From positions 1 through 37,643 of the forward strand of contig JAOABY010000018.1 of NCBI GenBank assembly GCA_026418115.1: DNA of 37,643 nt, read 5' to 3'. The notes beneath the pieces are model-generated. The model saw only the letters and a program-made list of their open reading frames with translations, was not told the DNA's origin and ran no database searches. This document shows, one piece after another, positions 3,022-35,047 of the stretch. Within the stretch, counting starts at the first letter, position 1, and each line of letters opens with the position of its first letter. This DNA is from Spirochaetaceae bacterium. Its GTDB lineage: Bacteria > Spirochaetota > Spirochaetia > Treponematales > Rectinemataceae. The position numbers and the translations under genes are program-made.

Positions 3022-4914
3022 ATGCAGACCGAACAGAAAGTGCCTTCCCAGAAAGTGCTGTTCATTGATGCCACCACCGGCTACTACCGCATGAAGCGCT
3101 ATCCGCTGGAAGATTACTTTGGGCCCATCGATCTCGGTGTGCATCTTGCCAGCCGCTACTGGACGCTGAATATTGGAACTGGCATGTTCGCAGGCTCAAT
3201 CCTTCCCGGCTCCAACAGGCTCATCATCAATGGCTTTTCACCATGCTGGCGTGGGTTCTACATATCCAGCATGGGAGGAGCCGGTCTGGTATTCGATAAT
3301 CTCGGCATCAACATGATTGCGCTCTCGGGACGGGCTGCCTGGCCATCGGTGCTCTACCTCAATCGCAATCATGGCGAAGAAATCGAACTTGAACTCGTTC
3401 CTGTGGATACTCACAGGATATGGGCAGAAGGTAGAGGCGGAGCCTATGCCATGATGGATCATGCGCTGGACACTCTTGGGTCGCGCTACCAGGGAGAATA
3501 CCGTGCACTGGCAGTCGGACCTGCAGCCGAGGCGACCGATTTTGGCGGCATTCTCTCTGCGCCAGTACAGCACGGCAAGGCGACCAACATCGACACCTGG
3601 GCAGGCCGGGGAGGTTTCGGTTCCAGGCTCCTGCAGGATCATGGCATCGCCGCTATCATTTTTGGCGGCACCGTCATCGACGAAGATTTCAGAGACCGTG
3701 CTGTTGCCGACCGCTGGTTCGAAGAAAAATACCGGCAGCGGCTCATGGTCAAGGATTTCGAGTCCACCACCAAGTATCGCTTTGACCCGAAGTTCGAAAC
3801 AGGCGGCACCTTCGGTGTGAATTTCGCCTCCATGGGTGACCGCCTGCTTGCATTCAATTACCGGACCATACACTGGTCAGAAGAGGACCGGCTCGAACTC
3901 CATCGGAAATTCGTCATTGAGCACTACCTGAAGCAGTTCAATGAGGAGACTATCCAGACAAAAAACCAGGCTACCTGCGGGGAGCCCTGTGCGGCCGTCT
4001 GCAAGAAGTACCGCAGCGAGTACAAGAAGGACTATGAGCCATACCAGACACTGGGGCCGCTGTGCGGCATTTTTGATCAGCGCGCCGCAGAACTTCTCAA
4101 TCATACAGGCGACTCGGCCGGGTTTGATGCGATTTCACTGGGCGGCGTGCTTGCGTGGCTGATGGATTGTCTGGATACAGGCAGTCTCTCGCCTGCGGAC
4201 CTTGGCGTGACACGTACGCCTCACTGGGATTGGCGCCATTTTGATATTGTGCACGATTCAATGCACAACGCAGAGCTTGGATGCGAGCTCATCGATTCCA
4301 TACTCAACAAACGCAGCCGGATCGATTTTTCCGAAGGTGTCCGCAAGTGGGCGCGGAGAATTCGCAGAGAAACGGGCACACGCATTCTTGATTCCTTTGT
4401 GCATACCGCCCATGGACGCAAAGGCTGGATGGTGCCCAATCAGTACTGGACTCCCGGCGTGCTGGCTCCGATGGCTATCATGGGCAAGTACTACATGCAC
4501 TATGGCTCCGAATTCCATCCACCCCGCGAACTTGGCAGAATCTGCGCCGAGAGACTCAAACAGGAGCTCATCATGGATAATGGCGGTTTCTGCCGCTTCC
4601 ACCGTGCATGGGCCGAGGAGATGGTACCGGAAGTCTTTCAGGCACTGTATGGCAAGGGCCAGGCATTCAGAAATTCAATCTCCACCACTGCAAGCCGCAT
4701 CAATTCCCGCAATGCGAGTATCTACTGGGAGAGCCAGGCTGCAATCGATTTCGTACGCACCTTCCTTGAGCGTGCGCTCGCGAAAGATCGTGGTGATAAC
4801 CCGGAGCTGCGTTTCTGGGTCGAATCATTCCGACAGGACCCGCATGAAGCGGCGCTCAGCTTCTGGTTTGAAATGCGCAAGGGTATCGATGAATCGCTGA
4901 GAGATTTCCTCTGA
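3022..4914 (+). CDS. Aldehyde:ferredoxin oxidoreductase family protein (tungsten/molybdenum pterin enzyme)
   Basis: Members of this family oxidise aldehydes to acids, passing electrons to ferredoxin, with a tungsto- or molybdo-bispterin and one [4Fe-4S] cluster. The 630-residue length fits the family. The N-terminal cofactor domain shows AVGPAAEATDFGG and NIDTWAGRGGFGSRLLQDHG (about residues 164-208), matching the AGRGG pterin-phosphate region. Cluster ligands appear at C319, C323 and C327 (CGEPCAAVC), with the fourth at C524 in DNGGFCRFHR. The last motif matches the D-x-x-G-x-C-[KR]-F signature. The first cysteine spacing is C-x3-C, whereas classical enzymes have C-x2-C. A good ribosome-binding site, AGGAGGCAGG, precedes ATG 3022. 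No pterin biosynthesis gene is adjacent. The substrate is unknown, and this looks like a divergent subfamily. Confidence 0.85.
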   Translation: MQTEQKVPSQKVLFIDATTGYYRMKRYPLEDYFGPIDLGVHLASRYWTLNIGTGMFAGSILPGSNRLIINGFSPCWRGFYISSMGGAGLVFDNLGINMIALSGRAAWPSVLYLNRNHGEEIELELVPVDTHRIWAEGRGGAYAMMDHALDTLGSRYQGEYRALAVGPAAEATDFGGILSAPVQHGKATNIDTWAGRGGFGSRLLQDHGIAAIIFGGTVIDEDFRDRAVADRWFEEKYRQRLMVKDFESTTKYRFDPKFETGGTFGVNFASMGDRLLAFNYRTIHWSEEDRLELHRKFVIEHYLKQFNEETIQTKNQATCGEPCAAVCKKYRSEYKKDYEPYQTLGPLCGIFDQRAAELLNHTGDSAGFDAISLGGVLAWLMDCLDTGSLSPADLGVTRTPHWDWRHFDIVHDSMHNAELGCELIDSILNKRSRIDFSEGVRKWARRIRRETGTRILDSFVHTAHGRKGWMVPNQYWTPGVLAPMAIMGKYYMHYGSEFHPPRELGRICAERLKQELIMDNGGFCRFHRAWAEEMVPEVFQALYGKGQAFRNSISTTASRINSRNASIYWESQAAIDFVRTFLERALAKDRGDNPELRFWVESFRQDPHEAALSFWFEMRKGIDESLRDFL

Positions 4915-6294: not shown

Positions 6295-9200
6295 TCATGC
6301 GGGATCAGACAGCACCGTGATGCCCGGGAGCGAGAGGCGTTCAAGATAGAGCAGAAAGGCTCGCGGCCCCGTCGAGATATGAAAGCCGGGAAGATCATCC
6401 ATCGCGAGATGCTTTTCCTGCTCAGAGCAGACAACAGCGAGCCCACCGTGTTCGACTGCCTCGCGCATCGCATGCTGCAGGAAGGAGATCGCAGTACCGG
6501 CATAGGCAGCTCCTGGATGCTGTTCAGATTTCTCCAGCTCGAGCCCCGCGCTACCCGCCCAGAGAATGGTCCGTGCTGAAGCAATAAAAGATGAGGCATG
6601 CAAGAGCCTTTCATCGTCAGGACTGGCAACAATCGGCAGAGTGACAAACAATTCCTGCCCGCCCAACAGCGCGCGCAGTTCCAGGTTTTCACTCTCACCA
6701 TGCAGCAGTATCATGGCATCCACTCTGGGGCGAAGCGCTGCCATGGCTCCATACTGGGCCTCCAGATCCTCACCACTGAACACAGCCACAAAAGGCCGCA
6801 CTGGCGCCAGCAGCAACTTTTCCAGCATTGCAAGCTCTCTCGCGATCATTGGCCCGGCCATGCTCAGGTTCACGAATCGAGGAAGGCTCACGATACTTGC
6901 ATGGCGCCTAAAACACACATTGAACGCATCATTCACGTACAGGCCATCACCGAGACTCGCAAGCGACTTTGCAAATGACTCATCATTATCAGTCTCGCCG
7001 CTTGCAAATCTCAGGTTCTCAACCATATGTATTCTGCCAGGTAGGATATCCCTGCGCGAGATGAGCAGCCCTGACGAACCTACGCTAGTCTCATGAAACT
7101 CCACCGGTGCGCCTATCATGCCTTCAAGCATCTGTGCAAAGGGCCTCAGACTGTAGCGTTCGTAGACTTCTTCACGGCTGAGGCTCATGCCATTCTGAGC
7201 TCCAGGGTCGCCGCGATGGGAAAGCAGCACCGGCGTTGCACCACGTTCGAGCAACTCACGCAGTACCGGCATCAGCAGCGCAACACGTCGTTCGGCAATG
7301 CTGTCCAGACCGTCGATGTTGAGGTCGACCCTGACCAGCACCCGCTGATTTCTGAGTGCAGGCACATGCTCGATGCCAAGTTTGCGAAGGCTGCGTTCCT
7401 GCTCGAGCGCCTGGAGTTTCCGCTGTACAAGATTTCTGATGCGGACAGCAGCCTCGACAGGATCGCGAATGTCATGCATTGCTTCTCGCACTGCAGCAAC
7501 CCGGATGAATGTCTCGGCAATCGGTGCGACACCGCGGTAGATGGCACCCGAATTGCCATCTATGGTAATCCGCTCGCCTTCTGCAAGTGCCATGCCACCC
7601 GCACCATGGAAGAGCACCCTCTTTCTTTCGTAGTCGATCTCGATGTCACTGCAGCCCACGATACATGGCTTATTGAGCGCCATGGCAGTGATGGCTGCAT
7701 GCGAAGTCCTGCCGGGATACACGGTGACAATGGCGCTCGAAAGATTGAGGAGCCTCACTTCCGCTGGTTTGGTATTCACAGCAAAAAGGATCACGGTCTC
7801 ACGCCTTCTGTCAGCCTGCTGGAGCCTTTCGGGCGTAAGTGCAAGCGTACCTGTAACCACTCCTCCATTGATGGGCACACCGACTGCCAGAGGGGGAACC
7901 CACTGTCTGAATCTGAACTCTGCACGTGGCAGGGCGATGTTGCCATTGGACGATTCTTCAATGTGCTCAAGGCGCTTTGCAAATTCATCCAGATTGATGA
8001 TATTCCGTTCAAGCAGGCTGAGCTCGCTCATGAGGCGGGCAAAGGTGCCAAGCCGTGCAGCACGAGCCTGCAGAAGATACAGCGTTCCATCTTCAACAGT
8101 GAATTCAATATCGAGTTCCTGGCGATAGAAGGCCCTGAGCGTTGCACTGCAGGCTTCGAGCTGCTTTACAAGAGAAGAGTCGAGTTCCTCGATGGGACGC
8201 AGGTCCGCACTACCAGAGACGACTTCCTCGCCCTGTGCGGCACGTTTGAATTCGCCAAAGAGACTGTCATCGCCAGTAATGGGATTACGGGTCAGAATCA
8301 CACCGCTGCAGCTTTGCTGGTTGAGATTGCCGAAGACAACTTTCTGCACAGTGACTGCCGTTTCTATCGATTCTGTGGAAGCAAGAGTCCGGCTGTAGTA
8401 GCGCGCCGCCTGTGATGACCGGGAATTGTAGACCAGCATGATGGCCTTGCGCAGCTGATCTTTGGCATCAATGAAGAACTCAGACCCCAGAAGAGGCAGC
8501 AGCGCCTTCTCGAGTGTCTGTTCTTCCGTCCCATACCCAGATGTAGCGGTTTCTCTGCCATCCCCTGCTCGGACCGGCAATTGCTCGGAGGGCAGCGCCA
8601 CACCTGCAGCAGCAGCGCAGTTGCGCAGAAATCTCAGGTAGAGAGTCTCCGCAAGCTCAGGGCCGTACCTGCGGCTGAGTGTCGCTCTCACTGCAGGGGT
8701 GAGACCAACGTTGATCACGGTTGCCATCATGCCTGGCAAGCTTGCCAATGAGCCAGAGCGCACGGATACCAGTAGAGGGTTCTGTGGATCTCCCAGCCTG
8801 CCACCGCACTGGCGCTCCAGTTCCTGCAGGGCGTGCATGACTGCCTCGCTGGCGCTCTCATCAAGCGCTGCTCCATGCTCTGTCAGATGAGTCTGGAACA
8901 CTGCATGGCTGATGATGAACGCAGGAGGCACAGGCAGCCCCAGTTGTGCCATGTCGATCAGGCTGTTCCCCTTGCCTCCCAGGTATTGTCTGAGCCAGGG
9001 TTCTACGGGCTGCCATGTCAGCGCAATGCCCCGGCGGGGCTCCAGACGAGTCAAGGCTGCTGACTTGCTCTCATCATCACGTGAACCTGCATCCGAGCAC
9101 CAGGAATACAGCTGCGATTCATCAAACTGGCGTCCCAGCATGCCTGCAACCGCCAGCCTCATTTTTTCCACAAACTCGCTCAGCACATGAATCAGCGTCC

Positions 9201-10434
9201 GTCTGATGAAATTATTGAAAAACCTTGTCCGTATGGTCAGCACCTTCGAGGTGGGAACGCCATACTCCTCAAGCGCCTTACCCAGAGGGCCATTCATCAC
9301 TCCGATGATGGATTCCTGCACGTAGTGCTGTACCTGAGATGATATCGCCTCCAGACGCCGCTTGCACTGCACCAGATCGGGGATGGCCGATTGACGGAAG
9401 GCCTCAAGTTCATCGAGAAACACATCGGCCTGCTCAATGGCGAGTCCTTTCACGCTGGAGATGGATAGGAGTACCTTCAGCACTTCGAGCGCATCATGGA
9501 GGTTCCTGGGAGTGACTTCGGCATAATGGTTGTTGGTGAGATCATTGGACACCAGAAAGACAAGCCTTCCCATGCCAAGGTCCAGCAGTACGAAATCATA
9601 GAGATCGATGCGGCCTTCGTAGTAGGACTGCTTCAGAAAGCGTTTGACACTCGCAAGCCGCTTGAGCGCATCCAGTTCGTGCTCCGGATTTTCGAGCAGC
9701 TCGGGTTCCAGGACATCGAGTAGGCTTTCGACCTCGGCACGCAGGAAACAGCGCTCAAAAATCTCGAGATTGGACCGCAGCGCATTCCGCACCGCTGCCA
9801 TGTCGCCTTCCTCGAAATCCCAGAGGTAGGTGAGCCGCGCATACAGATCCTTTGCCAGATCGAGGCACTCGGGATCTTCCTCCTCTGGTTTGAAGCGATA
9901 GGGAATCGCACCATAGCCTGTAGCCACCATGGGCTCAGGATTGTGGTGCTCGACCATCTCAAGATAGGGGACAAGATACTGGGTGATGATGCGGGGAGAG
10001 AGCCTGCGATGCACTTCCTTGCGAAGATCGCCTGCAAAGCCCAGAAGGGGGTCATCAGAACTGCGGCTCTCTTCGAACGCTTCGGCATCGGCACGAATGC
10101 GTTCGATCATCTCCTCGGCATCCTGGCGCACTGGAAATTTCTTGATGACCTCCCGCGCAAAATAGATGAAGTTGCTGGAAGGCTGGCTTACTGCCGCAAG
10201 CATCTGCCGGGTTCTGCGCTCTATTGCCTCCTGGATGGTCTCAACATCGCCCTTGCGTGTTCGAAGATCAGGGATTGTTGGATCGGTGCCGATCAGACGC
10301 AGATGGACGAGCAGCTCTATGAGCAGTGCAATCCTTTCATCTTCGCTGTCCGCATGCTCGATGCGATCGAGGTGCGCAATGATTGCTTCCCAGGTATTCA
10401 GCAGGTCTTTTTTTTGATCATGCAGGTCTGGCAT
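6295..10434 (-). CDS. PPDK-like ATP-grasp/phosphohistidine protein fused to a degenerate phosphoglycerate-kinase domain
   Basis: This is a chimeric 1379-residue protein, numbered from ATG 10434; a TTG at 10470 is an alternative and neither has an ideal ribosome-binding site. Residues 1-470 are helical and not recognised. Residues about 480-800 are a PPDK/PEP-synthase ATP-grasp domain: GGKGNSLIDMAQLGLPVPP, SVRSGS at 557, LTRNP, GEFKRAAQGEEVVSG, and E777, Q789 and R791 retained. Residues about 850-970 are the swivelling phosphohistidine domain, with YPGRTSHAA and H912. The PEP/pyruvate TIM barrel expected next is absent. Instead 1031-1379 match phosphoglycerate kinase: RVLVRVDLN, LLSHRGDP, ENLRF, YVNDAF, FRRHAS and HISTGPRAFLLYLE. 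The PGK nucleotide-binding loops are altered (GGxKV to SGEDL; WNGP to WAGS; GGGD missing; STGGGAS to STGPRAF). Most 3-phosphoglycerate contacts remain. Infer ATP-driven His phosphorylation plus a sensing or acceptor domain. Confidence 0.85.
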   Translation of the reverse strand: MPDLHDQKKDLLNTWEAIIAHLDRIEHADSEDERIALLIELLVHLRLIGTDPTIPDLRTRKGDVETIQEAIERRTRQMLAAVSQPSSNFIYFAREVIKKFPVRQDAEEMIERIRADAEAFEESRSSDDPLLGFAGDLRKEVHRRLSPRIITQYLVPYLEMVEHHNPEPMVATGYGAIPYRFKPEEEDPECLDLAKDLYARLTYLWDFEEGDMAAVRNALRSNLEIFERCFLRAEVESLLDVLEPELLENPEHELDALKRLASVKRFLKQSYYEGRIDLYDFVLLDLGMGRLVFLVSNDLTNNHYAEVTPRNLHDALEVLKVLLSISSVKGLAIEQADVFLDELEAFRQSAIPDLVQCKRRLEAISSQVQHYVQESIIGVMNGPLGKALEEYGVPTSKVLTIRTRFFNNFIRRTLIHVLSEFVEKMRLAVAGMLGRQFDESQLYSWCSDAGSRDDESKSAALTRLEPRRGIALTWQPVEPWLRQYLGGKGNSLIDMAQLGLPVPPAFIISHAVFQTHLTEHGAALDESASEAVMHALQELERQCGGRLGDPQNPLLVSVRSGSLASLPGMMATVINVGLTPAVRATLSRRYGPELAETLYLRFLRNCAAAAGVALPSEQLPVRAGDGRETATSGYGTEEQTLEKALLPLLGSEFFIDAKDQLRKAIMLVYNSRSSQAARYYSRTLASTESIETAVTVQKVVFGNLNQQSCSGVILTRNPITGDDSLFGEFKRAAQGEEVVSGSADLRPIEELDSSLVKQLEACSATLRAFYRQELDIEFTVEDGTLYLLQARAARLGTFARLMSELSLLERNIINLDEFAKRLEHIEESSNGNIALPRAEFRFRQWVPPLAVGVPINGGVVTGTLALTPERLQQADRRRETVILFAVNTKPAEVRLLNLSSAIVTVYPGRTSHAAITAMALNKPCIVGCSDIEIDYERKRVLFHGAGGMALAEGERITIDGNSGAIYRGVAPIAETFIRVAAVREAMHDIRDPVEAAVRIRNLVQRKLQALEQERSLRKLGIEHVPALRNQRVLVRVDLNIDGLDSIAERRVALLMPVLRELLERGATPVLLSHRGDPGAQNGMSLSREEVYERYSLRPFAQMLEGMIGAPVEFHETSVGSSGLLISRRDILPGRIHMVENLRFASGETDNDESFAKSLASLGDGLYVNDAFNVCFRRHASIVSLPRFVNLSMAGPMIARELAMLEKLLLAPVRPFVAVFSGEDLEAQYGAMAALRPRVDAMILLHGESENLELRALLGGQELFVTLPIVASPDDERLLHASSFIASARTILWAGSAGLELEKSEQHPGAAYAGTAISFLQHAMREAVEHGGLAVVCSEQEKHLAMDDLPGFHISTGPRAFLLYLERLSLPGITVLSDPA

Positions 10435-13489: not shown

Positions 13490-14602
13490 TCACCAGATCT
13501 GCACAAAAGAATGTCGACCCACCACGGTGCCATCACCAAGCTGACCCAAGCCATTGCCGCCGGCTGCCCAGAGTGTATCGTCAGTCTTGAGTATCATCGT
13601 GTGAGCCTCTCCTGCAGCAGCGGCTTCAACATTGCTCATGATCTGGACTGGAGTACTTTGATTGATCGTCGTACCGTTCCCAAACTGGCCATGGAAATTG
13701 TTGCCTGTTGCCCAGAGCGTGCCGTCATTCTTGAGTATGAGGGTGTGATAGCTGCCTGCTGCAACAGCCTTCACATTGTTCATGATCTGCACAGGAGTAT
13801 TTTTTGAGGTCGTTGTACCATCACCCAGCTGTCCCTCGAGATTGCGCCCTGTAGCCCAGAGCGTGCCGTCGGTTTTTAGGATCAGGGTATGCTCGCCTCC
13901 AGCGGCGACGTCCTTGACATAGCTCATGATCTGTACTGGAGTGTTGCGATGGGCCCACGTGCCATCACCGAGTTGACCATAGCTGTTGCCGCCCGTACCC
14001 CAAAGTGTATTGTCGATCTTGAGTATGAGAGTATGAGAGTATCCTGCATACACTGCTTTGACACCGCTCATGATCTGTACTGGAGTATTGGAGGATAGCA
14101 GACTGCCATTGCCAAACTGGCCCAAGCTATTTTCGCCTGCAGCCCAGAGTGTGCCATCATTCTTGAGTATCATGGTGTGCAGCGCTCCTGCAGCTACGCC
14201 TTTGACACCGCTCATGATCTGCTTGGGAGCGCTGCAACTAATAAACGTTCCATCGCCGAGCTGACCATAGAAATTGCTGCCTGTAGCCCACAGCGTGCCA
14301 TCTTTCTTGAGTATCAGTGTATGCGCCTCTCCGAGGGCAACAGCCTTCACATTGCTCACGATCTGCACAGGAGTATTTTTTGAGGTCGTTGTGCCATCAC
14401 CCAGCTGCCCATCGGTGTTGCTGCCTGTAGCCCACAGCGTACCATCGGTCTTGAGTATCATGGTGCGCTGATAACCGGCCACAACTGTGAGAATTGATTT
14501 CGACCAATTCAGGCCAAAAAGATTGCAGGAAAAGATTGATATGCTCAACAAGGCGCATATCGCAAGCATTCCTATGATCTGGATTTTTTTAGCTTGATGC
14601 AT
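13490..14602 (-). CDS. RCC1-repeat lipoprotein B
   Basis: This is a 370-residue predicted lipoprotein with a seven-bladed RCC1 propeller. The signal peptide includes IIGMLAICALLSISIFSC, ending in a lipobox cysteine near residue 26. Seven repeats of 48 residues follow, with the consensus HTLILKxDGTLWATGxN, GQLGDGT and TPVQIMSNVKAVAAG. Repeats 1 and 5 encode the same TTTSKNTPVQI, and their DNA differs at only about 4 of 73 bases over a 576-base (4 x 144) offset, so whole modules have been copied. ATG 14602 follows GAGG by seven bases. A good promoter lies at 14655-14683. The protein ends abruptly after FVQIW, as does paralogue C (PVRIW). Its role is unknown. Confidence 0.87.
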   Translation of the reverse strand: MHQAKKIQIIGMLAICALLSISIFSCNLFGLNWSKSILTVVAGYQRTMILKTDGTLWATGSNTDGQLGDGTTTSKNTPVQIVSNVKAVALGEAHTLILKKDGTLWATGSNFYGQLGDGTFISCSAPKQIMSGVKGVAAGALHTMILKNDGTLWAAGENSLGQFGNGSLLSSNTPVQIMSGVKAVYAGYSHTLILKIDNTLWGTGGNSYGQLGDGTWAHRNTPVQIMSYVKDVAAGGEHTLILKTDGTLWATGRNLEGQLGDGTTTSKNTPVQIMNNVKAVAAGSYHTLILKNDGTLWATGNNFHGQFGNGTTINQSTPVQIMSNVEAAAAGEAHTMILKTDDTLWAAGGNGLGQLGDGTVVGRHSFVQIW

Positions 14603-14853: not shown

Positions 14854-15621
14854 TCACCAGATCCGCACTGGAGTGAAACGATTCTCCCACGTGCCATCGC
14901 CAAGCTGTCCGTAGTAATTATAGCCTGTCGCCCAGAGCGTGCCGTCGTTCTTGAGTATCATGGTGTGAGAGCTTCCAGCCGCAACTGCCTTTACATTGTT
15001 CATGACCTGTACGAAGGTATGGCGCTCAGTCGTAGTGCCATCCCCAAGTTCGCCACAGCTATTATCGCCCGTACCCCAGAGTGTATCGTCGCTCCGGAGT
15101 ACCATGGTATGAGCGTATCCCGCTGCAACAGCTTTTATATCGCTTGCAATATACTTCGGGGTTCTGCAATCATCCCAGGTTCCATCACCCAGCTGGCCAT
15201 GGAAATTCCATCCAGTCCCCCAGAGCGAACCATCGGTACAGAGCACCATGGTATGGTACATCCCGGCTGCAATTGCGGAAACGGAATGTGACCATTGAGC
15301 ATAGAGTGTGACGTCGGCGCTGCCCATGGCGAAGGTGTCGCCAGCCTGGTAGGCTGTCCCAGTACCGTCGGCATTCGTGTTCCACCCGGAAAAACCATAG
15401 CCGGTTCGAGCGAGGTTGCCTGTGTTTCCCTGGACCGTCACTGTGTCACCTTTCCGATACTCGACGCTGTCGATTGGTACGCTTCCGCTTGTGGCACCAT
15501 TCGCATCATACAGCACAGAGTAGGTAGGCGGGATGAAAAGATTGCAGGAACTTATAGTTGTACAAAGCACGAAGCCTGCCACAAGCATGACAATGCTTCT
15601 GTGATATTTGCCGCTAATCAT
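14854..15621 (-). CDS. Lipoprotein C with InlB/Listeria-Bacteroides repeat and RCC1 repeats
   Basis: This is a 255-residue predicted lipoprotein. The signal region IVMLVAGFVLCTTISSC ends in a lipobox cysteine. Residues about 33-110 form one InlB B-repeat (Flg_new family), recognised from YSVLYDANGATSGSVP, GYGFSGWNTNADGTGTAY and VTLYAQWS. Three RCC1 repeats of 48 residues follow (HTMVLCTDGSLWGTGWN, GQLGDGT), so a closed seven-bladed propeller cannot form from this chain alone. It may be a shortened copy or may pair with other chains. ATG 15621 follows GGAGG by seven bases. It is transcribed toward lipoprotein B from its own promoter. Surface display and binding are inferences from the repeat types. 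Confidence 0.87.
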   Translation of the reverse strand: MISGKYHRSIVMLVAGFVLCTTISSCNLFIPPTYSVLYDANGATSGSVPIDSVEYRKGDTVTVQGNTGNLARTGYGFSGWNTNADGTGTAYQAGDTFAMGSADVTLYAQWSHSVSAIAAGMYHTMVLCTDGSLWGTGWNFHGQLGDGTWDDCRTPKYIASDIKAVAAGYAHTMVLRSDDTLWGTGDNSCGELGDGTTTERHTFVQVMNNVKAVAAGSSHTMILKNDGTLWATGYNYYGQLGDGTWENRFTPVRIW

Positions 15622-24411: not shown

Positions 24412-25398
24412 TTATGGCTGTTCATTGCGGCGTTTCAATTCGAGGCGTTTCTTGCGGAACTCCATGATGGGGTAATCCCCCTGGATGAGCAGCTCACCGG
24501 TACCGGTGCCATCTCCCTTGGGAAGCTGCGTGTTGACGACCCGGCGGTCTTGGTGCGCGACGATCAGGTTGAAACGGCACATGAGCCAGTCGACAAGCTG
24601 CCGAAGCACCGGCAGGCGCACAAAGTCCTGGTACAGCCTCAGATAGAGGATGGTGTGGGTCTCATCGACAGGCACAAAGATGCCCAGAACTCTGAGCTTC
24701 TTCGAAATATAGTTCTGCCAGAGATTGGGAAGTATGGTTTCGAGCTTGAAGTCGCGGTCGGGCGGGGGCACGGGGACTTCCTGTGGGGTCCGCGGTTTTG
24801 AGCCATCATCAATCTTGTTGTAGGTGTAGTGGTAGAACATGATGTCGTGCTTCCACTCGAGACCGGGGCCCTCGACGAGGGTACGGTTGCCGCGCCCGAT
24901 GGTGTTGTGGTGGACAAAGGGCAGGTGCACTACATCGAGCTGGTTTTCCAGCACGCGCGTATAGTGGTTGTCCCAGGGGTCACGCACGGTTTTCCAGTGA
25001 GTGAAGTGGGTGAGATCGTCAAAAAAGGAGGGCGGCGCAAGGTCCTGTGGCGGATTCTCGCCCCACCAGATCCAGATGATGCCATGGGCTTCGTGCGTGG
25101 GATAGCTGCGCATCCTGAAGCGCTCGGGCACCGGGGTGTTCTTCCCATTGGCTGGTATTTTCACACAGCGCCCCGAGGCATCGTACTGAAGCCCATGGAA
25201 GGGACAGGCGATGGCATCGCCATGGTGCCTGCCTCCCGCAAGCGAGGCGCCGCGGTGCGCACAGCGATCGTAGAAGCAGTGCACCGCACCCTGGCGGTCT
25301 CTCCAGAACACGAGTCTCTCGCCGAGGCGCGTGACTCCTACAATCCCATCCTTGACTTCACTCGATTCGAGCACCGCGTACCAGAGGTTTCTGATCAT
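24412..25398 (-). CDS. Rieske non-heme iron oxygenase (VanA/DdmC-like)
   Basis: This 328-residue protein resembles the alpha subunit of Rieske oxygenases that demethylate or hydroxylate small organic molecules with O2. The N-terminal Rieske [2Fe-2S] domain has C46-x-H48 (CAHRGASL) and C65-x2-H68 (CPFHGLQYD). The catalytic domain has ENQLDVVHLPFVHH, giving D155, H158 and H163 as likely iron ligands or bridge. GRCVKIPANGKNTPVP and HGIIWIWWGENP fit the VanA/DdmC group. AGGA lies seven bases before ATG 25398. No reductase of the VanB type is nearby; a flavodoxin follows instead. The substrate is unknown. An O2-dependent enzyme is unexpected beside anaerobic-type genes. Confidence 0.88.
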   Translation of the reverse strand: MIRNLWYAVLESSEVKDGIVGVTRLGERLVFWRDRQGAVHCFYDRCAHRGASLAGGRHHGDAIACPFHGLQYDASGRCVKIPANGKNTPVPERFRMRSYPTHEAHGIIWIWWGENPPQDLAPPSFFDDLTHFTHWKTVRDPWDNHYTRVLENQLDVVHLPFVHHNTIGRGNRTLVEGPGLEWKHDIMFYHYTYNKIDDGSKPRTPQEVPVPPPDRDFKLETILPNLWQNYISKKLRVLGIFVPVDETHTILYLRLYQDFVRLPVLRQLVDWLMCRFNLIVAHQDRRVVNTQLPKGDGTGTGELLIQGDYPIMEFRKKRLELKRRNEQP

Positions 25399-31564: not shown

Positions 31565-31596
31565 TTAAGTTTGTACACTTTGTACACTTTGTATGC
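31530..31596. repeat. Inverted array of 9-bp repeats at the end of the ATPase gene
   Basis: Three 9-bp units on the left (CATACAAAC, TATACAATC, TATACAAAG) face three on the right (TTTGTACAC twice, TTTGTATGC) across a 13-base centre. In the leftward transcript the arms would pair at 21 positions plus two G-U pairs out of 27. The right arm encodes the last residues of the ATPase (QSVQSVQT). It could be an iteron-type binding site or a long terminator-like hairpin. Confidence 0.6.
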
Positions 31597-32581
31597 CTTT
31601 TTGTAGCAGAGCATATTCGCCGTACTGCGTGCGCACGATGAGCCCGTCATCGGCCAGCCGCCGCAAGAGCCTCGATGCGGTCGAGTCGTCGATACCCAGA
31701 GCTGCGGCGATCTCACTGGTGCGCCCATGCCCGCCATGCTCGCGCAGATACTCGATGAGCCTGCGGCGCTCTGGTGTTTGTCGCAGCTCCTCTGGCGAAG
31801 CCGTAGAGAGCCGATAGCCGAGCGGATCAGTGCAGAAGTCGAGTGCAAGCTTTTGCGCTTCGATATCGTTGCCGTCAATAAAGAGCACGGCGTTTTCCTC
31901 GCCGCGGTTGCGAATAAGCGTCAGAAGGACGTCGGCATTCGCTTGCATAGCAACAGAGCCCATGACGCCGTCGAGGTAGTCGGCGGTTTCCATTTTGCGC
32001 CGGTGCGTAACAAGCATGATCATTACGCCCAGGTCATTTGCCAGCTGGCGAAGCGGCGCAAGGACAGAGTAGACGTCCTGGTAGCTGTTTGTATCCGCCT
32101 CAATCGGCCATAATAGCTGCAGCACGTCCACAATAACGAGTCGATAGCCCTGCGCCTCGATTGCGTCGGCCAGTGCTTGCAAGCCTTCTGCGCCCGTCGG
32201 CCAGCGAAAAGCGAAGTCGAAGTTTGCGCCAGGCACGATGCCCATTTTTGAAAGCCGCTGCGCCGTCCTGCGTTGCGAGAGCTCGAGCTGTAGGTACAGG
32301 ACTTTTGATTCTGTCGTAGGTATACCGAATAAGTCGCGCCCTCGCGATATGGCGTCAGCGAGCTGCAGCAGTAAGAGCGTTTTGCCCGATGCCTTCGATG
32401 CGGCGCAGATAGCCAGTCCTGCGTCAGGCAGTACGCCCTGCCAGAGGTATTTGGGCTCTTCATAATGCGTCGTCAAGAGCGCAGCGCCGCTCACGATCTC
32501 GAGCTTCGCGAGGCGCTCTTTTTTCGCCCGCTCTTCCGCGGCGAGCTCGTCGACAGTGTCGAGGTAAGGATCCGAGCTCAT
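31565..32581 (-). CDS. RepA/AAA_25-like RecA-fold ATPase with C-terminal winged helix
   Basis: This 338-residue ATPase resembles the RepA/DnaB-type helicase-like proteins of small plasmids and integrated elements. Walker A is AASKASGKTLLLLQ, with S and K in place of the usual first glycine region but an intact SGKT. Walker B is YRLVIVDVLQLL, and LGVMIMLVTHRRKM resembles the sensor region. Residues about 265-325 form a helix-turn-helix (RTSEIAAALGIDDSTASRLL), a DNA-binding tail. The last eight residues come from 9-bp tandem repeats. ATG 32581 overlaps the stop of the preceding gene. A replication or maintenance role for the element is likely but not shown. Confidence 0.8.
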   Translation of the reverse strand: MSSDPYLDTVDELAAEERAKKERLAKLEIVSGAALLTTHYEEPKYLWQGVLPDAGLAICAASKASGKTLLLLQLADAISRGRDLFGIPTTESKVLYLQLELSQRRTAQRLSKMGIVPGANFDFAFRWPTGAEGLQALADAIEAQGYRLVIVDVLQLLWPIEADTNSYQDVYSVLAPLRQLANDLGVMIMLVTHRRKMETADYLDGVMGSVAMQANADVLLTLIRNRGEENAVLFIDGNDIEAQKLALDFCTDPLGYRLSTASPEELRQTPERRRLIEYLREHGGHGRTSEIAAALGIDDSTASRLLRRLADDGLIVRTQYGEYALLQKGIQSVQSVQT

Positions 32582-33952: not shown

Positions 33953-35047
33953 TCATTTTTTTTCTGCAGTGAGCTTTATAATGCGCTCGCTATCTTTTTT
34001 GACTTGCGGAAGGCTCGCAATGATCTCTTTTTTCCGCTGATCCGTCATCCGCAGGTATACTTCCGTGATTTTAATATCGCTATGCCCTAGTAGTCGGCTC
34101 ACGGCGTAGATATCGCCTGATGCTTCCAGCGTCATCATGGCGAAGCTATGGCGCCCTGCGTGCCAGCCGAAGGCTTTTTCGATGCCCGCCCGCTTGCGCC
34201 AGGCAATGAGCGGCTGATGAGGATTTACGCCTTTCGTAGCAGTCAGGCGCGGAAAGACAAGCTCGTCCTGCCGATGCAGGCGCTTGTCATCGATAAGCTC
34301 CCAGGCAATCGGCGCGAGGGGGATGCTTACGTAATCGCCAGTTTTATGCTGGCGCTTTTTAATCATCGGTTCAGGCTCGCGGCGGATATCGCCCCATAGC
34401 AGAGAGCGGATATCGCCGAGGCGCAGCCCAGTAAAGCAGGAAAGCAAAAAGCCCCGCCGTACTTCGTCGGCAAGCTCTCCTTCCACTGGCGTATTGTAGA
34501 GCCTTTGGATCTCCTCGACAGTTAAATAAGGCTTCTCATGCTCTGGCGCACGAATAGGTTTTACGCCCTTCGCAGGGTTGCGCTCGATGAGTCGTTCGCG
34601 CTCTGCCCGTGCAAGTACCGCCTTGAGCGCTGCCAGGTAGTGCTGCGCGGTCTTTGCGCCCAGCCCTTCCTGCTTCAAGAGGAATGCCCTGTAGGCGTCA
34701 ATGAAGCGCTCGTCAACGTCGACAAGCGCAGTATCGCCCGCGTATTGTCGAAGGTACTTCAGGCTCTTTGGCAGGTGCATTTTCTTGTCGTACTCCGCGG
34801 CGATTTTTTCCGCGTACTTGATGAGCGTCATTTTCGAGCCTACGGGGTCAATGAGCTGGTACCGCCCCGCCGCGATCTGCAGCTCTCGCTTGCGGCGGAT
34901 CTCTTCAGCCAGTGCCCATGCTTCGCGCTGCCCCTGCCTGTCAGCTGGCAAGGCAAAGTGCAGAGCTTCGAAGCGCCGCTTTCCGTCCAGGCAAATATCC
35001 AGGTAAAAGTACTTCTGCTTTCCGCGTAGCCTGATTTTTACACCCAT
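33953..35047 (-). CDS. Tyrosine-family site-specific integrase
   Basis: This is a 364-residue phage-type recombinase that inserts the element into the tRNA-Leu gene. The catalytic set is complete: R209 (TGLRLGD), K235 (HKTGDYVSIPL), H296 and R299 (WHAGRHSFA), H322 (LLGHSDIKIT) and the nucleophile Y331 (EVYLRMT). Residues about 70-165 form the core-binding SAM-like domain (TLIKYAEKIAAEY, KTAQHYLAALKAVLARAERE). The N-terminal 60 residues form the arm-binding domain. AAGGGGG lies five bases before ATG 35047. Arm-type repeats lie in its own promoter region, so integrase may repress itself. Confidence 0.95.
   Translation of the reverse strand: MGVKIRLRGKQKYFYLDICLDGKRRFEALHFALPADRQGQREAWALAEEIRRKRELQIAAGRYQLIDPVGSKMTLIKYAEKIAAEYDKKMHLPKSLKYLRQYAGDTALVDVDERFIDAYRAFLLKQEGLGAKTAQHYLAALKAVLARAERERLIERNPAKGVKPIRAPEHEKPYLTVEEIQRLYNTPVEGELADEVRRGFLLSCFTGLRLGDIRSLLWGDIRREPEPMIKKRQHKTGDYVSIPLAPIAWELIDDKRLHRQDELVFPRLTATKGVNPHQPLIAWRKRAGIEKAFGWHAGRHSFAMMTLEASGDIYAVSRLLGHSDIKITEVYLRMTDQRKKEIIASLPQVKKDSERIIKLTAEKK

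Follow-up and report, generated by a model that had tools for sequence, protein, structure and literature searches.

A spirochaete protein family joining a PPDK-type dikinase half to a degenerate phosphoglycerate kinase

We analyzed a stretch of 37,643 nt from a Spirochaetaceae bacterium (assembly GCA_026418115.1, contig JAOABY010000018.1, positions 1 to 37,643; hereafter the window) and found that a gene on its minus strand (6295-10434) encodes a protein in which the phosphotransfer half of pyruvate, phosphate dikinase (PPDK) is joined to a two-lobed domain resembling phosphoglycerate kinase (PGK). The modules follow each other in the order helical N-terminal domain, PPDK-type ATP-grasp domain, phosphohistidine domain (PEP-utilizers; PEP, phosphoenolpyruvate) and PGK-like part. 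The coding sequence of 1379 amino acids plus stop is a single unbroken frame from the ATG at 10434 to the stop at 6295. Homologs align from near this ATG, although translation might alternatively begin at an in-frame TTG (10470), and on the plus strand of the same interval the opposite frame shown is interrupted by 14 stops. An earlier note on this DNA had described the dikinase and PGK-like parts of the open reading frame, and both are indeed found in it; the note gave no strand and left the N-terminal third undescribed. Judging from the sequence, we tentatively favor the view, to which we give somewhat less than an even chance, that the protein is a stand-alone modular dikinase. In such an enzyme phosphate would be passed between H912 and a ligand bound by the N-lobe of the PGK-like part, perhaps 3-phosphoglycerate (3PG) and its partner 1,3-bisphosphoglycerate (1,3BPG).

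The fused frame was observed in nine full-length and three partial copies from twelve Treponematales genomes. These represent 12 of the 394 genomes sampled in the order and belong to four genera of two families, with a patchy distribution within a genus; the hosts are Treponema sp. and metagenome-assembled genomes of Spirochaetaceae/Spirochaetota. The full-length homologs (G001, G004, G006, G017, G028, G057, G063 and G066) are 51-57% identical to the window protein, while the pieces in G008, G021 and G029 are cut by their contigs. A scan of 84,980 species genomes with two short peptide patterns of the N-terminal domain, which divergent relatives could escape, returned only eight loci, all of them from spirochaetes. 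The ratio of nonsynonymous to synonymous substitution rates (dN/dS) is well below 1 in every module and highest in the PGK C-lobe, and no stops were observed in the copies. The degenerate C-lobe might be taken as a sign of a recent gene join, of a frameshift or assembly artefact, or of a decaying pseudogene, and a frameshift or assembly join was one of two findings that the earlier note had named as overturning its reading. However, nine stop-free copies of the same fused frame in separate genomes, purifying selection in each module and differing neighbors argue for a real family, and we regard an artefact or pseudogene as refuted for all practical purposes.

The dikinase half comprises an ATP-grasp domain (residues 481-800, positions 8035-8994, minus strand as for all parts of the protein given below) and a phosphohistidine swivel domain (residues 851-975, 7510-7884). 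Pfam matches these, far above its cut-off, as PPDK_N (residues 527-742, E=4.5e-30) and PEP-utilizers (residues 879-963, E=4.6e-18). The best NCBIfam match is the PPDK model TIGR01828 with 326 bits, compared to 61 bits for PEP synthase, the PDB sequence match to PPDK reaches 2e-68, and the ATP-grasp motif is of the PPDK type (SVRSG..S.PG.M.T..N.GL). K488, R559, D775, E777, Q789 and R791 correspond to K22, R92, D321, E323, Q335 and R337 of the C. symbiosum PPDK, whose roles were reportedly described by Ye et al. in 2001. All six are invariant in the nine members, as is H912 (codon at 7699-7701, within PGRTSHAAITA), the presumed phospho-accepting residue, which aligns with the catalytic His of PPDK (TSHAA); E777, Q789, R791 and H912 are the residues that had been pointed out before. 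The swivel domain is the most conserved large module (47% invariant), and 82 of 205 positions that are invariant in the compared spirochaete PPDKs are kept in all nine fusion members. What separates the protein from PPDK (TIGR01828, PDB 1kbl/1vbg) is the absence of the pyruvate/PEP triosephosphate isomerase (TIM) barrel, the PGK-like domain found instead of it and a helical domain of 440 amino acids ahead of the ATP-grasp domain. Residues 481-977 align with positions 14-512 of the 865 positions of TIGR01828, from which we can infer that the barrel half is absent, and no pyruvate/PEP TIM barrel family was matched in the Pfam search of the 1379-aa protein, as the earlier note had claimed.

Loss of the barrel is also known from VadK of Mycobacterium tuberculosis (Rv1127c), a PPDK derivative whose His is still autophosphorylated and which interacts with enzymes of the methylcitrate cycle (PMC13400623). 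The fusion protein might likewise be a protein-histidine kinase, phosphorylating itself on H912 and acting as a regulator of other metabolic enzymes, with the PGK-like part serving for docking or sensing. The region matched by TIGR01828 also scores 305 bits with PRK05878, a short PPDK model. We consider this explanation improbable, as VadK has no added domains, whereas the fusion protein has the PGK-like and the helical domain in all full-length members, and the retention of the four modules together under selection suggests that the acceptor lies inside the protein.

For the C-terminal part, the profile search and the structure prediction that had been suggested as checks both point to PGK. 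The Pfam family (PF00162) matches residues 1026-1243 with E=2e-47 (model positions 5-212), again far above the cut-off, and the PDB sequence match reaches 4e-31. The other finding named in the earlier note as overturning its reading, a lack of PGK similarity, does not apply, as the similarity is strong. In the structure model of this part (predicted local distance difference test, pLDDT, 74) both lobes have the PGK fold, and all 50 PDB fold matches listed are PGKs (best E 2.8e-19, TM-score ~0.6-0.66). In all members the PGK-like part is found after the swivel domain, where the barrel would be. We compared this half of the nine family members with 39 normal PGKs, using the 3PG contact positions and their roles as given in pig numbering in PMC7729029. 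In the N-lobe (residues 1031-1210, 6805-7344) the contacts D23, N25, H62, R122 and R170 are kept in 9 of 9 members, and the residues assigned to the 3PG side in the earlier note (D1037, N1039, R1050, H1073, R1142, R1176) proved to be correctly named; R1177, directly after the R170 position, is a new invariant Arg. The C-lobe (residues 1211-1350, 6385-6804) still has a PGK-like fold but is degenerate, having lost the positions for the nucleotide and for the catalytic lysine. None of the nine members retains the GGD or the GGG nucleotide loop, the GGG glycine loop having become GP(R/S/A), which bears out the loss of the Mg-ATP loops claimed before, and Lys219 is lost in eight and kept in one. 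The N-lobe is also under stronger constraint than the C-lobe (identity 0.58 versus 0.38; dN/dS ~0.08-0.3 versus ~0.14-0.47). The PGK C-terminal tail (HISTGPRAFLLYLERLSLPGI, residues 1351-1375, 6310-6384) is 52% invariant. The protein has the two-lobe fold, the 3PG contacts and the C-terminal tail in common with PGK, but differs from it by the lost nucleotide loops and catalytic lysine and by being joined to a dikinase.

Arg65 is the textbook PGK contact that holds the 3-phosphate, and this position is Asp in the fusion family. We considered this loss as a sign of a changed ligand and rejected it, since normal spirochaete PGKs with the SHLGDP motif have Asp as well (14 of 14, versus Arg in 25 of 25 others), which makes it a lineage trait and not a lost function. 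The SHLGDP-type PGKs (L001, L062, L065, L068, L075, L079, L088-L092, L094-L096) occur in the order of the window and in some other spirochaetes and also carry an insert of ~20 residues. The common SHxGDP motif and the insert hint at an origin of the PGK-like part within the spirochaete PGKs; the tree of the N-lobe, which is ~31-39% identical to normal PGKs and forms a long branch, neither supports nor rejects this origin (approximately unbiased test, p 0.49).

Lacking the barrel of PPDK and the nucleotide site of PGK, the protein belongs to neither family, and for this reason we place it among the modular dikinases. Dikinases with other acceptor domains are known, namely rifampin phosphotransferase (RPH), HpeHI and PpsAB (PMC12167813). 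These likewise combine an ATP-grasp domain and a swivel His with an acceptor domain that is not of the pyruvate type; however, the ATP-grasp motif of the phenol kinases is described as PEP-synthase-like (PMC12167813) while that of the fusion protein is PPDK-like, and their acceptor is not PGK. PGKs joined to other domains, some of them predicted to be inactive, have been reported as well, i.e. the PGK-TIM fusion of Thermotoga and the large or inactive PGKs of kinetoplastids (PMC7729029), but these have no dikinase part and that of Thermotoga is active as a PGK. Our literature search found no paper naming a dikinase-PGK fusion or a dikinase that has a PGK lobe for its acceptor or sensor domain, in line with the earlier note, which knew of no described enzyme with this layout.

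PPDK and PGK catalyze separate steps of lower glycolysis and differ in their chemistry, which is a phosphohistidine relay in the former and direct transfer from ATP in the latter. For the modular dikinase that we favor, every catalytic step of which we infer, the invariant residues suggest that, as in PPDK, H912 would receive a phosphate from ATP through the ATP-grasp domain. Its delivery to a ligand in the PGK-like N-lobe, standing where PPDK has the pyruvate barrel, would fall to the swivel domain, and the C-lobe, without nucleotide handling, would be retained as a scaffold. The simplest ligand would be 3PG and the product 1,3BPG. The net reaction would then read 3PG + ATP + Pi <-> 1,3BPG + AMP + PPi (Pi, phosphate; PPi, pyrophosphate) and might proceed in the ATP-forming direction, as that of PPDK often does. 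PPDK runs toward ATP from AMP + PPi in many anaerobes, and from the phosphoryl potentials a 3PG/1,3BPG dikinase reaction would be near-reversible and could run from AMP + PPi to ATP. A more specific proposal is that the protein is a '3-phosphoglycerate, phosphate dikinase', a new enzyme of lower glycolysis that interconverts 1,3BPG + AMP + PPi and 3PG + ATP + Pi via a swivelling phosphohistidine. It would be a pyrophosphate-linked counterpart of PGK in which the PGK substrate half has replaced the pyruvate barrel of PPDK; we regard this proposal as rather unlikely. The earlier note had considered a 3PG sensor, a phospho-acceptor domain and a new phosphotransferase, and each of the three is still a candidate function. 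A conserved join of a PPDK donor and a PGK substrate half would show that a lobe of an unrelated enzyme can take the place of an acceptor domain in the dikinase superfamily, and with such a protein the 1,3BPG step could gain a route linked to pyrophosphate.

Several observations weigh against transfer of phosphate to an N-lobe ligand. Catalytic Lys215, the stabilizer of the transferred phosphoryl, is replaced by Asp or Glu in all nine members, a change that works against chemistry of the PGK kind. Six of nine members keep Arg38; the group of G057, G063 and G066 has Ser at this position and an Arg one helical turn later. No neighboring gene is common to the whole family (some are common to close relatives only), so that the genomic context backs no pathway. 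Finally, the helical N-terminal domain is conserved at least as strongly as the PGK N-lobe and could hold the real acceptor. Because of the acidic residue at Lys215, the losses of Arg38 and the strong conservation of the N-terminal domain, a dikinase gated by 3PG and using another acceptor is nearly as likely. The PGK-like domain would then be a sensor of 3PG/1,3BPG, and the acceptor would lie outside this domain, with the helical N-terminal domain or a partner molecule as its most probable site; we hold this to be possible rather than probable. If it applies, the protein would be a histidine dikinase under the control of a glycolytic intermediate. In dikinases of the RPH type the substrate domain is helical, and the retention of the 3PG contacts without the phosphate-moving PGK residues (K215 in all members, R38 in three of nine) would fit a sensor. 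Kinetoplastid PGKs that are predicted to be dead or that carry added domains have been described (PMC7729029), and a helical region of HpeH is mentioned in PMC12167813. On the other hand, the PGK-like part holds the position of the barrel beside the swivel domain, and the N-terminal domain resembles no known substrate domain in sequence or fold.

This N-terminal domain (residues 8-445, 9100-10413) is all-helical in the AlphaFold2 model, which comprises ~440 amino acids and ~20 helices (pLDDT 87.8, predicted TM-score 0.83). It is kept in all nine full-length members with a mean pair identity of 0.64 and 36% invariant positions, which places it among the most conserved modules, and its dN/dS is the lowest (~0.05 in close pairs). 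Two of 393 genomes sampled in the phylum contain it, both of them with members of the fusion family, and it was found only alongside the other three modules; together with its strong conservation this also favors a sensor with the acceptor in the N-terminal domain. By sequence we found nothing significant in Pfam or PDB and no relatives in viral contigs, phages or plasmids, and the model matched neither a PDB fold nor a viral fold significantly. RPH is not among the 50 of 245 PDB folds listed, none of which is significant, and no direct comparison with RPH was made. The 440-aa region represents a domain family without known relative. Its strongly conserved role may be docking, dimerisation or regulation, and it is a competing candidate for the acceptor site.

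The genome that carries the fusion gene also contains a normal PGK of 428 amino acids (C108) and a PPDK gene (C33) with an open frame of 710 amino acids, shorter than usual in this assembly. We conclude that the fusion protein is extra and is no simple replacement for either enzyme; the earlier note had suggested looking for both genes. A normal PGK is also present in the genomes of other members, and for G028 none was among the matches listed. Apart from this, three genomes of the phylum (L085, G430:C117; L086, G015:C304; L087, G022:C53) encode, beside the normal PGK, another and divergent protein of the PGK type, whose AHQGD motif recalls archaeal PGKs. A 1012-aa protein (L003, G000:C68:1892-3031) carries receiver-like sequence followed by PPDK_N, without the TSHAA phosphohistidine motif.

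Within the window, a divergent aldehyde ferredoxin oxidoreductase (AFOR)-like gene is located at 3022-4914 on the plus strand, and three further AFOR matches were found in the same genome. A link of the fusion protein to this neighboring gene (a GAPOR-type idea) was considered and rejected, as G001, G004, G006 and G008 have no AFOR match and there is no synteny. Three genes on the minus strand (907-2052, 13490-14602 and 14854-15621) encode RCC1-repeat proteins, one of them with Listeria-Bacteroides/InlB-type repeats. A Rieske oxygenase-like gene is present at 24412-25398 (minus strand), in a host that is probably an anaerobe. A tyrosine-type integrase gene (33953-35047, minus strand) is close to an AAA/DnaB-like gene whose product has a winged helix (31565-32581, minus strand), and the two possibly belong to a small mobile element.

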